In this document: one piece after another, positions 30,612 through 62,610 of the stretch
Layout: every line of letters starts with the position of its first letter
How positions within the stretch are numbered: position 1 is the first letter of the stretch
NCBI RefSeq assembly: GCF_000473265.1
Contig: NZ_KI421511.1
Span: 6,713,909 to 6,777,908 of the forward strand
From: Amycolatopsis thermoflava N1165
Lineage (GTDB): Bacteria > Actinomycetota > Actinomycetes > Mycobacteriales > Pseudonocardiaceae
DNA: 64,000 nt
Direction of reading: 5' to 3'
The notes under the pieces: generated by a model
The model's input: only the letters and a program-made list of their open reading frames with translations
Told to the model about the DNA's origin: nothing
Databases searched by the model: none
Position numbers and translations under genes: made by a program

Positions 30612-30680
30612 TGGGTGAGGTGGGTGGCTTTGCTCTTCGGGCCTCGGCGACTGGTGATGTGGGATGCGTCCGTCGGCTGT

Positions 30681-30960
30681 GGGTGAGGCGGGAGGGCTTT
30701 GCTGTCCGTCCGTCGGCTGTGGGTGTGGCGGGAGGGCTTTGCTGTCCGTCCGTCGGCTGTGGGTGTGGTGGGAGGGCTTTGCTGTCCGTCCGTCGGCTGT
30801 GGGTGTGGTGGGAGGGCCTTGCTTTCCGTCCGTCGGCTGTGGGTGTGGTGGGAGGGCCTTGCTTTCCGTCCGTCGGCTGTGGGTGAGGTGGGAGGGCCTT
30901 GCTTTCCGTCCGTCGGCTGTGGGTGAGGCGGGAGGGCCTTGCTCTCCGTCCCTCGGCTAC
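30681..30960. repeat. Minisatellite: seven tandem 40-bp units
   Basis: Seven head-to-tail units of exactly 40 bp starting at 30681, 30721, 30761, 30801, 30841, 30881 and 30921; neighbours differ by one to a few bases, and a diverged copy lies on each side (about 30613 and 30961). Each unit contains GGGTGTGGTGGGAGGG, able in principle to form a two-tier G-quadruplex, and GGAGGGC-TTGCT. Because 40 is not a multiple of three, all frames stay open and long spurious reading frames appear on both strands. I see no codon bias or start signal supporting a gene. Confidence 0.9.
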
Positions 30961-31633
30961 TGGTGGTGGGGATGGCTTTGCTGTCCGGGTCTTCCGCTGC
31001 TTTGGCTGGCGGGGCTGCTTCGCTTCGTTGTCCGCGGGCGTGCGCGCTGCCCGGCGGTGGTGCTCGGTGGTGCCGTTCGGCGGGTCTTCCGCCGCCTGGT
31101 CCTGCTTCGGCCGCAGGTGGTCCTGCTCCTTCGCCCGGTCCTGCTTCCGCCTGGTCCGCTCGGCCGCCCGGTCCTCGTTCCGCTCGGCCCCCGCCCGGTC
31201 GGGTCAGCCGCCCGCGCGGTCCGCTCGGCCGCCCGGTCCTCGTTCCGCCTGGTCCTGCTTCGGCCGCCCGGTCCTGCTTCCGCCGACGGTGGTCCCGCTT
31301 GTTTCGCTGCCGACCGGGCCTCTTCACGGTTCAGCTCTGCCGCGAGCGTGCTTGCGCTTGGCCTGCTCCTGCCTGGGCCTCCGTCTTCGGTCGGGCCCGG
31401 CTTCCACTGGGCTTCGCCCTCTTTTGGCTGCACTTGCGCCTGAACCCTCGAGCGGCATTCAGCGGCCGGCCCTCACCACCACCTGGCCCCTGCACGACTG
31501 TGCCTCTCGTGGCGTCACGAGGGTGCCACTCGTGCGATCGCGGCCGCTCCCGCCGCCTCACGCTCCGCGCTGGCCCTGGTCTGCCCTGGCCTGGCCCCCT
31601 GCCGCCTGCCCCGCCCCCGCTCCTGCGCGGCTG
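30961..31633. other. Low-complexity non-coding stretch
   Basis: About 670 bases without a credible gene. It is built of shuffled pieces such as CGGCCGCCCGGTCCTCGTTC and GGTCCTGCTTC repeated irregularly between 31080 and 31300. A small hairpin CTCGTG-GCGT-CACGAG lies at 31506-31521. Frames are open on both strands, but the translations are Arg/Pro/Gly-rich and repetitive, and they lack ribosome binding sites. Confidence 0.6.
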
Positions 31634-59690: not shown

Positions 59691-60281
59691 GTGGGTTTCG
59701 TGGAGCGCGGGTTGAGGAAGCAGCGGACACGGCAGGCGATCTCCGACGCGGCGACGCGGTTGTTCATCTCGCGGGGGTTCGAGGAGGTGACGATCGCGCA
59801 GGTCGCGGAGGCGGCGGACGTGGCGAAGATGACGGTCACCAACCACTTCCCGCGCAAGGAGGACCTGGTCTTCGACGTGCACGAGTCGTTCGTGGCGAGC
59901 CTGGCGGCGGTGCGGGACCGGCCGTTGGTGCCGGCCTTCCGGGAGGCGTGGTTCGGGGGGCTCGAGCGCCGGGACGCCCTGCTCGGTTTCTCGGGGCCGG
60001 AGTTCGCGCGGATGGTCGTCGAGAGCCCGACGCTGCTCGCGCGGTTGCGTGAGTTGCACGAGGAGCGGGAGAAGGCGCTGGCCACCGCGCTGGTGGAGGA
60101 GTTCGACGCCGACACCGCGCGCGCCGCGGCGGCCCAGATCGCCGGCGTGCACCGCCTGCTGTTCGACGAGGTGCTGCGGCGCACCGCGGCCGGCGAGCAA
60201 GCGGCGGTGGTCGCGGAGGCGGTGGGGCGGGCAGGGGCGCGGATGTTCGATCTGCTGGAGGCCGGGCTGGGCGCGCTCTAG
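59691..60281 (+). CDS. TetR/AcrR family transcriptional regulator
   Basis: TetR repressor of 196 residues. HTH: RQAISDAATRLFISRGFEEVTIAQVAEAADVAKMTVTNHFPRKEDLVFD. The C-terminal domain (FAEMVVESP-type helix, then QIAGVHRLLFDEVLRR) is of the kind often found beside oxidoreductases. GTG at 59691 is used; a second GTG three codons later is possible. It probably controls the divergent mca gene. The 60-bp space after its stop leads into the palindrome array. Confidence 0.88.
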   Translation: MGFVERGLRKQRTRQAISDAATRLFISRGFEEVTIAQVAEAADVAKMTVTNHFPRKEDLVFDVHESFVASLAAVRDRPLVPAFREAWFGGLERRDALLGFSGPEFARMVVESPTLLARLRELHEEREKALATALVEEFDADTARAAAAQIAGVHRLLFDEVLRRTAAGEQAAVVAEAVGRAGARMFDLLEAGLGAL

Positions 60282-60341
60282 CTTGCGGCCCGGTTCGGCT
60301 GTGCTGGCTCTCGGGGGTGGAGCGGATCGAGCGGATTTTGA

Positions 60342-61127
60342 TGAACGGTCCATTCATGCGGCGGTGATGGGGTTTGTGGTGGGTGGATGAATGGTCCGTT
60401 CGTGCCTTCGGGAGTGGGTGGGCATGTGGTGGCTTGATGAACGGCCCGTTCACGCGGCGGCGATGGGCCGTGTGGTGGGTGGATGAGCGGCCCGTTCGTG
60501 CCTTCGCGAGCGGGTATGTCGTGCCTTGATGAATGCCACGTTTATGCGGCGGCGATGGGGGCCGTGGTGGGTTGATGAGTGGTCCGTTCGTGCCTTCGCG
60601 AGTGGCTGGGCATGTCGTGCCTCGATGAACGGCCCGTTCCCATGCTGTGGCGACGGGGTCTGTGGTGGGTGCATGAACGGTGCGTTCATGCCTACGCGAG
60701 TGGGTATGTCGTGCCTTGATGAATGGTCCCTTCATGGCTTTGGGAGCGGGTGGGCATGTGGTGCGCCGATGAACGGCCCGTTCACGCGGCGGCGATGGGG
60801 CCGCGGTGCCTCGATGAATTGTCCGTTCACACCGCGGCGATCGGGTCTGTCGTGGGTGGATGAATGGCCCGTCCATGCCTTCGCCCGTGGGTGGACATGT
60901 CGTGCTTCGATGAATGGTTCGTTCATCGGTTCGCGGGTGGGCCAGTCGTGCGGAGATGAACGGGCCGTTCATGCCTTCGCGTGCGGGTGGGCCGGTGGTG
61001 CCTCGATGAACGGCCCATTCATCGCTTCACCGCTGCACCATTGGACCAGCGGCGAGCCGATGAATGGTCCGTTCAACCACGCACACCTGGACGGCACCAG
61101 CGGCGGTCGGTGAACGGTCCATTCATC
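60342..61127. repeat. Array of 17 palindromes (ATGAACGG-N-CCGTTCAT) in a two-spacer pattern
   Basis: Seventeen 17-bp sites, most perfect or one to three bases off, start at 60342, 60388, 60438, 60484, 60530, 60576, 60626, 60674, 60720, 60770, 60815, 60861, 60911, 60957, 61007, 61061 and 61111. Start-to-start distance is 45-54, mostly 46 or 50. Two kinds of linker alternate: type A around GCGGCGATGGGG and type B around GCCTTCGCGAGTGGGT. Thus the real unit is a roughly 94-bp dimer, amplified about eight times. Frames on both strands are open (MNGPF), but no gene is credible. Not CRISPR. Confidence 0.92.
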
Positions 61128-61167
61128 GCAGCGCGAGAGGGCCAGTCGCACCGCGACGAATAGGTTC

Positions 61168-61316
61168 ACTCCAGCCGAACCACGGACGCCCTAAGCCCGC
61201 GAAGCGCAAGAGCGCTACTCCAGACGAACCACGGACGTCCGAAGCCCGCGAAGCGCAAGAGCCCCACTCCAGACGAAACCACCGACGGCCCGAAGCCCGC
61301 GAAGCGCAAAGACCCC
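61168..61316. repeat. Three tandem units of 49-51 bp after the sigma-factor gene
   Basis: Units start at 61168, 61217 and 61266, each with ACTCCAG-CGAA, a variable middle and GCCCGCGAAGCGCAA. They end 2 bases before the sigma-factor stop. On the minus strand they would lie in the 3' untranslated part of that gene. Together with the palindrome array they fill the 1-kb gap between the TetR and sigma genes. Confidence 0.8.
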
Positions 61317-61318
61317 AC

Positions 61319-62575
61319 TCACTCCCCAGCAGCCGCTTTCGCCCGGGCCAGCAGCACATCCCGCTCCCGGGCGTTCCGCGTCAGCGAAGCCGCCCGTTCG
61401 AACTCCGCCCGTGCCTCCGCCAGGCGCCCCACCTTCGCGAGCAGGTCGCCCCGCACCGTGGGCAACAGGTGGTACCTCGCGAGCGCCGGCGAGGCTGTCA
61501 GCTCGTCCACCAACGGCAGCGCCGCCTCGGGACCCGAAGCCATCGACACCGCCACCGCGCGGTTCAGCTCCACCACCGGCGACGGCGTCACCTCCGCCAG
61601 CTCCCCGTACAGCGCGGCGATCCGCTCCCAATCGGTGTCCTCCGGCGCACCCGCCCGCGCGTGGCACGCCGCGATCGCCGCCTGCAGCACGTACGGTCCG
61701 CGCACCGGCGACAGGCTCTCCGCCCGCTCCAGCGCCGCCAGACCGTGCCCGATCAGCAACCGGTCCCACTTCGCCCGGTTCTGGTCCAGCAACAGGATCG
61801 GCTCACCGTCCGGCGTCACCCGCGCCCTGGACCGCGACGCCTGCAACTCCATCAACGCCACCAGCCCGAACACCTCGGGCTCCCGCGGCGCCAGCCCGGC
61901 CAGGATCCGCCCCAGCCGCATCGCGTCGGCGCACAACTGCGGGCGCATCCAGTCGTCGCCGGCCGTGGCGGAGTATCCCTCGTTGAAGATCAGGTACACG
62001 ACCTCCAGCACGGACCCCAGCCGCTCCGCCAGCTCCGGCCCGGCAGGCACCTCGAACGGCACCTTCTTCTGCGCCAGCGTCCGCTTCGCCCGCACGATCC
62101 GCTGCGCCACCGTCGACTCCGGCACCAGGAACGCACGCGCGATCTCGTCCGTCGTCAGCCCACCCAGCAAGCGCAACGTCAGCGCCACCCGCGCCTCCGT
62201 CTTCAGCACCGGGTGGCACGCCGTGAAGATCAACCGCAACAGGTCGTCCGGCACCTCGTCCGGCTCGACCTCGATCGCCTGCTGCGACGTCTCCAGATCG
62301 AGCCCGATCTCCTCGTGCTTGCGCTCCGCCATCTTCAGGTGCCGGAAGTGGTCGATCGCGCGGCGCTTGGCGATCGTCATCAGCCACGCGCCCGGGTTCG
62401 ACGGCACACCGGACGACGGCCACTGCTCCAGCGCCGCCACCAGCGCGTCCTGCGCCAGCTCTTCGGCCAGCCCGACGTCGCGCACCATGCGCGTCAGCGC
62501 GGCGATCAGCTTCGCGGACTCGATGCGCCACACGGCGTCGATGGTGCGGTGTGCCTCGGTGACCGTCACGGTCAC
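61319..62575 (-). CDS. ECF sigma factor, ECF42-type with long C-terminal TPR-like extension
   Basis: Extracytoplasmic-function sigma factor of 418 residues. Region 2: VRDVGLAEELAQDALVAALEQWP and GAWLMTIAKRRAIDHFRHL; region 4: GLTTDEIARAFLVPESTVAQRIVRAKRTLAQK. After residue about 175 comes a 240-residue helical extension (GPYVLQAAIAACHARAGAPEDTDW, AEARAEFERAASLTRN) as in ECF42/SigJ-like proteins. No anti-sigma factor is nearby; the coupled gene is a DGPF protein. The GTG at 62575 is preferred to ones further upstream because of the GAGG spacing. Confidence 0.88.
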   Translation of the reverse strand: MTVTVTEAHRTIDAVWRIESAKLIAALTRMVRDVGLAEELAQDALVAALEQWPSSGVPSNPGAWLMTIAKRRAIDHFRHLKMAERKHEEIGLDLETSQQAIEVEPDEVPDDLLRLIFTACHPVLKTEARVALTLRLLGGLTTDEIARAFLVPESTVAQRIVRAKRTLAQKKVPFEVPAGPELAERLGSVLEVVYLIFNEGYSATAGDDWMRPQLCADAMRLGRILAGLAPREPEVFGLVALMELQASRSRARVTPDGEPILLLDQNRAKWDRLLIGHGLAALERAESLSPVRGPYVLQAAIAACHARAGAPEDTDWERIAALYGELAEVTPSPVVELNRAVAVSMASGPEAALPLVDELTASPALARYHLLPTVRGDLLAKVGRLAEARAEFERAASLTRNARERDVLLARAKAAAGE

Positions 62576-62610
62576 CGAGCACACCACCTCACCGCGGCGA
62601 GGGCAAGGTC

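Follow-up and report, generated by a model that had tools for sequence, protein, structure and literature searches.

What is being kept where one short palindrome recurs at nearly regular steps between two bacterial genes: a site that a protein needs, a signal at the ends of genes, or a repeat that multiplies on its own account? The question is raised by one intergenic gap of Amycolatopsis thermoflava N1165, in what we call the window, the whole stretch of 64,000 nucleotides that was analysed. An earlier note, made from the letters alone, had described an array of palindromes there and had offered as readings a protein-binding array, a family of repetitive elements with the same palindrome elsewhere, and a transcription-terminating cluster. 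Here we follow the array from the window to the rest of its genome and to its relatives, and weigh these readings against one another.

A palindrome array between two gene ends

The array and its neighbours are given below; palindromes lie within three mismatches of ATGAACGGNCCGTTCAT unless marked otherwise.

59691..60281, plus strand, flanking gene 1, TetR-family regulator, ending 59 bp before the array (PF00440, E 5e-13)
60341..61126, no strand, whole array of 17 palindromes (pattern search, Tandem Repeats Finder)
60341..60357, no strand, palindrome 1
60387..60403, no strand, palindrome 2
60437..60453, no strand, palindrome 3
60483..60499, no strand, palindrome 4
60529..60545, no strand, palindrome 5, degraded, found only with Y/R allowed
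60575..60591, no strand, palindrome 6
60625..60641, no strand, palindrome 7
60673..60689, no strand, palindrome 8
60719..60735, no strand, palindrome 9
60769..60785, no strand, palindrome 10
60814..60830, no strand, palindrome 11
60860..60876, no strand, palindrome 12
60910..60926, no strand, palindrome 13
60956..60972, no strand, palindrome 14, the sole exact ATGAACGGNCCGTTCAT
61006..61022, no strand, palindrome 15
61060..61076, no strand, palindrome 16
61110..61126, no strand, palindrome 17
61319..62587, minus strand, flanking gene 2, ECF-type sigma factor (DUF6596), ending 192 bp past the array (PF20239, PF04542, PF08281)

Seventeen palindromes of the form ATGAAYGGNCCRTTCAT, each of 17 bp and parted by linkers of 28-37 bp, make up the array at 60341-61126. 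A search of the 64-kb window at three or fewer mismatches to ATGAACGGNCCGTTCAT gave 16 sites, every one inside the array, against a shuffle expectation of 0.15 (sd 0.39, largest 2; 16 or more in 0 of 100 shuffles), and permitting Y/R at positions 6 and 12 adds the degraded site at 60529. The recurrence of 17 copies is therefore borne out, and the array is where it had been placed, save that its earlier span of 60342..61127 lies one base too far to the right. From palindrome to palindrome the steps are 46, 50, 46, 46, 46, 50, 48, 46, 50, 45, 46, 50, 46, 50, 54 and 50 bp, mostly the 46 or 50 bp that had been reported. The accompanying description of many sites as near-perfect was generous, with 7 of the 17 matching the 15-bp core TGAAYGGNCCRTTCA exactly and a single one matching all of ATGAACGGNCCGTTCAT. 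Copies within one array are not independent, so these site statistics are descriptive.

The linkers are of two main types, A and B, with about 77% identity within a type and 60% between types, a difference that is partly one of construction because the types were assigned from the first letters of the linkers. Their order is ABABABABBAABxBxx, three of the 16 falling outside both types; the two linker types of the earlier note thus stand, and its alternating dimer of about 94 bp, amplified some eight times, does not extend beyond the first eight linkers. Tandem Repeats Finder returned a period of 96 with 7.2 copies and 71% matches, and further periods of 45, 46, 141 and 187. The suggestion that it is the palindrome that is being kept has weak support within the array, where pairwise identity is 79.5% for palindromes, 77% for linkers of the same type and 63.5% for all linkers, and draws its support from other genera, where the core is constant and the linkers differ.

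The TetR and sigma factor genes are convergent, and the array therefore lies between two gene ends. A 49-bp repeat of 3.1 copies (61167-61320, Tandem Repeats Finder) separates it from the sigma factor gene; among the fetched loci, a 21-base piece of this repeat is present solely in copies of the same place. Elsewhere in the window, a 40-bp tandem repeat (30667-30987, 8.1 copies, 93% matches) fills a gap between two minus-strand genes and is unrelated to the palindrome. The window matched nothing in Rfam at gathering scores, the array DNA matched nothing in plasmid and phage collections at E 1e-5, and the exact core pair occurred in 0 viral contigs. Nor does the array have the near-identical repeats and unique, unrelated spacers of a CRISPR: 13 of the 16 linkers belong to two related types and the repeats vary between copies.

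Seven arrays in one genome and the hairpin question

Across the window's genome (G000; 8.69 Mb in two contigs) the exact core TGAAYGGNCCRTTCA occurs 45 times, and all 45 copies lie within seven arrays, with 0 matches for the reversed-pattern control. At three or fewer mismatches the seven arrays hold 79 sites (6, 6, 17, 11, 12, 8 and 19). It is thus the option of a repetitive-element family with its palindrome elsewhere that is supported, both by these arrays and by their relatives in other genera. The earlier note had proposed to set clustering against scatter and took clustering to favour a special site; clustering is what was found, but 12 of 19 congeneric genomes have no exact pairs, and at the window locus some relatives are empty. 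Unit lengths are 46-50 bp in the arrays of the window and of L011, mostly 52-54 bp in two others and 80-86 bp in one, and the remaining two arrays are short and irregular. Related linker types occur at two distant loci, in that the linkers of L011 (1.65 Mb away and in reverse orientation) resemble the A and B linkers of the window, with a mean best match of 0.77 over 18 linkers as against 0.67 when shuffled.

Three of the seven arrays lie between convergent genes (L007, L009, L011), four between genes on the same strand (L005, L006, L008, L010) and none between divergent genes, so that at least one gene end stands beside every array. These orientations were called with a simple GC-frame gene finder and checked with Pfam for the neighbours of all seven arrays except one at L008; for one neighbour at L010, Pfam gave no family. 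Within the genome the centres of exact cores are always about 45 bp or more apart, and loosely matching pairs are found at 21, 23 and 28 bp. The idea that neighbouring palindromes in the arrays are inverted copies of each other found no significant support, 34 of 132 being so against 28.2 expected (p 0.11).

The palindromes of the arrays are not RNA hairpins. In 162 sites from 15 Amycolatopsis array loci (orthologues are counted, and a single A. bartoniae array contributes two loci), the pair at positions 6 and 12 is TG in 59, CG in 43, CA in 35, TA in 16 and something else in 9. Wobble or mispaired combinations thus make up 94 of 153, and the association between the two positions runs against pairing (odds ratio 0.33, p 0.002, with copies that are not independent). 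A single palindrome folds at -5.2 (CG), -3.4 (TG) or -0.1 (CA) kcal/mol, and a hairpin of this kind was rejected for its weak fold and for stem pairs that do not covary. RNA of the whole array does fold better than shuffled sequence whichever strand is taken (z -4.1 and -5.0; matched by 0 of 20 shuffles in either case), as any array of palindromes would. By eye, no T-run follows the palindromes of the array, which lack the combination of stable stem, U-tract and conserved pairing that marks an intrinsic terminator.

Departures from perfect pairing favour G-T over A-C on one strand, in ratios of 16:2 at L008, 16:1 at L009, 13:1 at L029 and 1:6 at L005, and at L008, L029 and L005 the strand so favoured is the one as which the neighbouring genes are transcribed. 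Over the same-strand settings, G-U tends to be kept on the transcribed strand, for and against, by 16:2 at L008, 13:1 at L029, 6:1 at L005, 4:2 at L010 and 5:6 at L006. We discount this RNA-strand polarity as evidence, since the copies of an array are not independent and a mutation bias tied to transcription would point the same way.

Turnover among relatives and doublets in a neighbouring genus

Relatives were searched by pattern, by family or by protein. Of 19 genomes in the window's genus, 7 have pairs of exact cores, and in a family sample that takes in these seven the count is 15 of 297 genomes. By name, such pairs are found in Amycolatopsis thermalba, tucumanensis, bartoniae and deserti, Actinosynnema pretiosum, Saccharopolyspora elongata and three Rhodococcus strains, a list that is not independent of the genome samples because several records (the four Amycolatopsis and the Actinosynnema) are in both. 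In a class-wide sample a single core occurs in 16 of 296 genomes, in one or two copies each except in the window's own.

The locus of the window has a history of its own. Best matches to the sigma factor gene, one per congeneric genome and our own included, gave 14 orthologue loci, five of which carry arrays of 5-16 sites at two or fewer mismatches. At three others the TetR and ECF matches lie 15, 61 and 63 bp apart with the array absent, at L088 the long gap between them holds other GC-rich repeats (by eye), and in the remaining five there was no TetR match within the fetched locus. Five arrays of different length and three closely spaced gene pairs among 14 loci indicate that the array has been gained or lost within the genus, its length changing.

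Beyond the genus, the core stays constant while the linkers and the outer arms of the palindrome differ: Actinosynnema, Saccharopolyspora and Rhodococcus have other linkers, one Rhodococcus carries GTGAATGGTCCATTCAC with linkers mostly of 14 bases, Actinosynnema carries TTGAACGGACCGTTCAA, and the arms are extended as TGTTA..TAACA in G193 (a genome of the same family but another genus) and as GGT..ACC in Actinosynnema. Steps of 30-31 bp are shared by Rhodococcus, G031, G109, G193 and G267. Two orthologous TTGAACGGACCGTTCAA arrays in the genus of Actinosynnema (L072 and L078) have 23-bp steps and lie between divergent genes, unlike the gene-end pattern seen elsewhere. In a Rhodococcus cluster, an element with HTH_38 and rve domains, which we take to be IS30-like, lies between palindromes at L032 2305-3556, and a related strain (L021) is without it there. 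Insertion of this element inside a palindrome was considered and rejected, as comparison with L021 places it between palindromes.

In G193, the palindrome takes the form of scattered inverted doublets within a longer inverted repeat. With the 7-base core left free, a pattern search of 60 genomes from this neighbouring genus (g16) detected such doublets in 15, with 1 to about 90 matches per genome, several different cores and 0 for the reversed control; G193 itself has 56 forward matches. These doublets, one of which folds at -42 kcal/mol, carry compensatory changes. Among 41 distinct 47-base doublets, hand-picked from five g16 genomes out of some of the matches listed, 97.2% of cells are paired in the long hairpin against 84.3 when shuffled (0 of 500 shuffles), a figure to be read with the search pattern in mind, which prescribed 11 of the 21 stem pairs fully and another two by half. 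Two-sided changes occur in 119 cells against 36.8 when shuffled (0 of 500) and 0 to 14 with the partner slid, at seven of the eight variable pairs; the remaining pair, beside the loop, varies by loss of pairing alone (14 of 41). Two other measures of covariation stood at shuffle level (7 pairs with a two-sided change against 6.8, 18 further pair types against 19.2), and the alternative of two small hairpins gave no covariation.

The doublets favour gene ends. Of 23 in G193 that could be classified, 18 have convergent genes on their two sides, compared with 13 of 98 background pairs (p 3e-12), although they are not a random sample of G193 doublets because their loci were chosen for the exact core; eight of the 18 lie 8-18 bp from both gene ends. 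The 23 come from 25 doublets found in 23 of 27 loci, one within an ORF and one unclear case being left out; the finder returned none at L050, L054, L057 and L058, of which L054 has a degenerate doublet inside an ORF and L057 and L058 have single palindromes. Of the background pairs, 47 (4 convergent) come from these loci and 51 (9 convergent) from the window, and gene orientations in G193 and Actinosynnema come from the GC-frame gene finder alone. Doublets also occur inside a gene: nuoG of G193 holds one in frame (L038 2001-2045), and at the same place G033 has a doublet with a different core (L114 from about 3499). Both add a repeated peptide to the protein (MNGPFIT.. or MKDAFIA..), where G125, G095, G267, G306 and G000 have other residues, and in both the arms are direct rather than inverted copies.

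The kind of repeat and how it may spread

Taken together, we think the array has probably arisen by tandem amplification from a family of small palindromic repeats, non-autonomous and of the REP/REPIN/BIME/NIME kind, which Pseudonocardiaceae and some Rhodococcus carry. The recognised unit would be one palindrome with the core TGAAYGGNCCRTTCA, read by some enzyme, two inverted copies of which would form a doublet able to fold into one long hairpin. Such doublets would spread and come to rest chiefly between gene ends, the places where they would be least harmful. In the window's clade, copying internal to an array, through slippage or unequal crossing-over, may have multiplied the palindrome and its linkers into arrays, with exchange between loci shaping the arrays as well. 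Descent of arrays from doublets is suggested by the 17-bp unit that they share, and it is on this unit that the link rests, since the window's genome has no exact close pairs, only loose ones. Mobilisation would occur in trans, by some enzyme, and the repeats would serve no essential function; if they influence transcription or DNA topology at gene ends, the effect would be mild.

REP-type repeats are considered dependent on RAYT transposases, and a Y1 (RAYT-type) partner is what defines REPs and REPINs. A Pfam search of 27 genomes for the Y1 transposase (PF01797) matched two, G109 with one exact doublet and G012 with no repeat, and found none in 14 of the 15 repeat-bearing genomes (G000, G193, G306, G063, G100 and G274 among them). 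The known mobiliser of REPs is therefore missing, and the family, which works like REPs and REPINs, is for that reason not filed as a member. Tentatively, and with less confidence than we have in the kinship itself, we suggest that the Pseudonocardiaceae may harbour a REPIN/BIME-like system that spreads without Y1/RAYT, in which some enzyme or binding protein recognises the core, a given insertion place comes to hold different cores in different species (as in nuoG of G193 and G033), and doublets gave way to long gene-end arrays in one clade.

Among known systems, enterobacterial BIMEs are marked by Y/Z alternation, gyrase binding and a location at gene ends. The window's arrays are like them in clustering palindromes with linkers, and unlike them in that no RAYT was found in the genome; BIMEs are named in the available text of PMC3733652. 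A close parallel is Pseudomonas fluorescens SBW25, for which PMC3116915, as far as the excerpt goes, describes REPINs as inverted doublets forming a long hairpin with compensatory changes, REP tandem arrays with alternating spacings of 112 and 72 bp, near-copies of an array at distant loci, and 1,053 REP sequences. A short palindromic unit, inverted doublets with compensatory changes (here in g16), tandem arrays with two spacings and array near-copies at distant loci are common to both, whereas our repeats differ in their core, in number (79 sites in seven arrays) and in giving no Y1/RAYT match in 14 of the 15 genomes that bear them (excerpt of PMC3116915). What the earlier note had put forward as its best candidate for something undescribed is not entirely so in kind, REP tandem arrays with two alternating spacings being described in the same excerpt of PMC3116915. 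The REPIN traits are also unevenly shared: doublets are seen in g16, and the window's array has no close exact doublets or significant inversion of neighbours; dispersal likewise is a trait of g16, where forward matches reach 89 in a single genome, as against just seven clusters in the window's genome. Neisserial NIMEs, in the portion of PMC3898611 at hand, are intergenic arrays of 200-2700 bp in which the dRS3 repeat (about 20 bp with inverted ends, ATTCCC(N8)GGGAAT, almost 700 per genome, and a place of filamentous-phage integration) is mixed with repeat families of 30-160 bp. They resemble our arrays in alternating palindromes with a few linker families (two main types in the window, related ones in L011) and differ in core, TGAAYGGNCCRTTCA not being dRS3, and in number, 79 sites against almost 700 (same portion of PMC3898611). 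Literature searches with most subscription journals outside their scope recognised no publication on the family by array-core motif or by title (Amycolatopsis or Actinosynnema repeats), which does not show it to be unpublished, and with the doublet-core motifs matched only an unrelated mouse paper.

The main rival to such a repeat family, and one we judge unlikely, is that a dimeric DNA-binding protein would sit on each 17-bp duplex palindrome and the array would nucleate a large complex, whether as regulator sink, insulator, nucleoid site or segregation site. Dyad symmetry would suit it, as would a core held constant across genera while linkers differ, the tight clustering of cores, and the wobble and mispaired combinations at positions 6 and 12, which a protein on duplex DNA can accommodate but a hairpin cannot. 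However, no exact core stands outside the arrays of the window's genome as a regulated single target, exact pairs in only 7 of 19 congeneric genomes and an empty window locus in some relatives argue against a conserved function, and neither arms extended differently from genus to genus nor doublets that covary as a long hairpin would be expected of a fixed operator.

A cluster of terminators, in which the palindromes would work as hairpins in the RNA and stop read-through at gene ends, from one side or from both, is still less likely, and this option of the earlier note proved weak for single palindromes, which fold poorly and show no covariation in their stems. The gene end beside each of the seven arrays, the eight G193 doublets lying close to two gene ends, the stable fold of a doublet, and the folding of array RNA on both strands, though any palindrome array would share it, speak for termination; against it stand the missing T-runs, the two Actinosynnema arrays between divergent genes, and relatives without the array that keep both genes 15-63 bp apart. 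A neutral satellite, that is, an immobile minisatellite whose intergenic source chanced to include a palindrome when it was duplicated in tandem, seems to us very improbable. It would account for copy numbers and linkers that vary between species, and Amycolatopsis mediterranei appears in a table of prokaryotic satellites (in the available part of PMC6749651). Our arrays are tandem and variable in copy number as those satellites are, but the same palindrome at several loci and in several genera sets them apart (same part of PMC6749651), and one core at seven loci and in other genera, with related linkers at two loci, needs spread or selection beyond local duplication.

A family of largely REP-like anatomy, with a palindromic unit, inverted hairpin doublets, two-spacer tandem arrays and a location at gene ends, in actinobacteria that apparently lack RAYTs offers a way to ask what else may spread or maintain such repeats. 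It also raises the question of whether arrays act at the ends of genes that face each other. Finally, as copy number differs between close species, the arrays could serve as strain markers.
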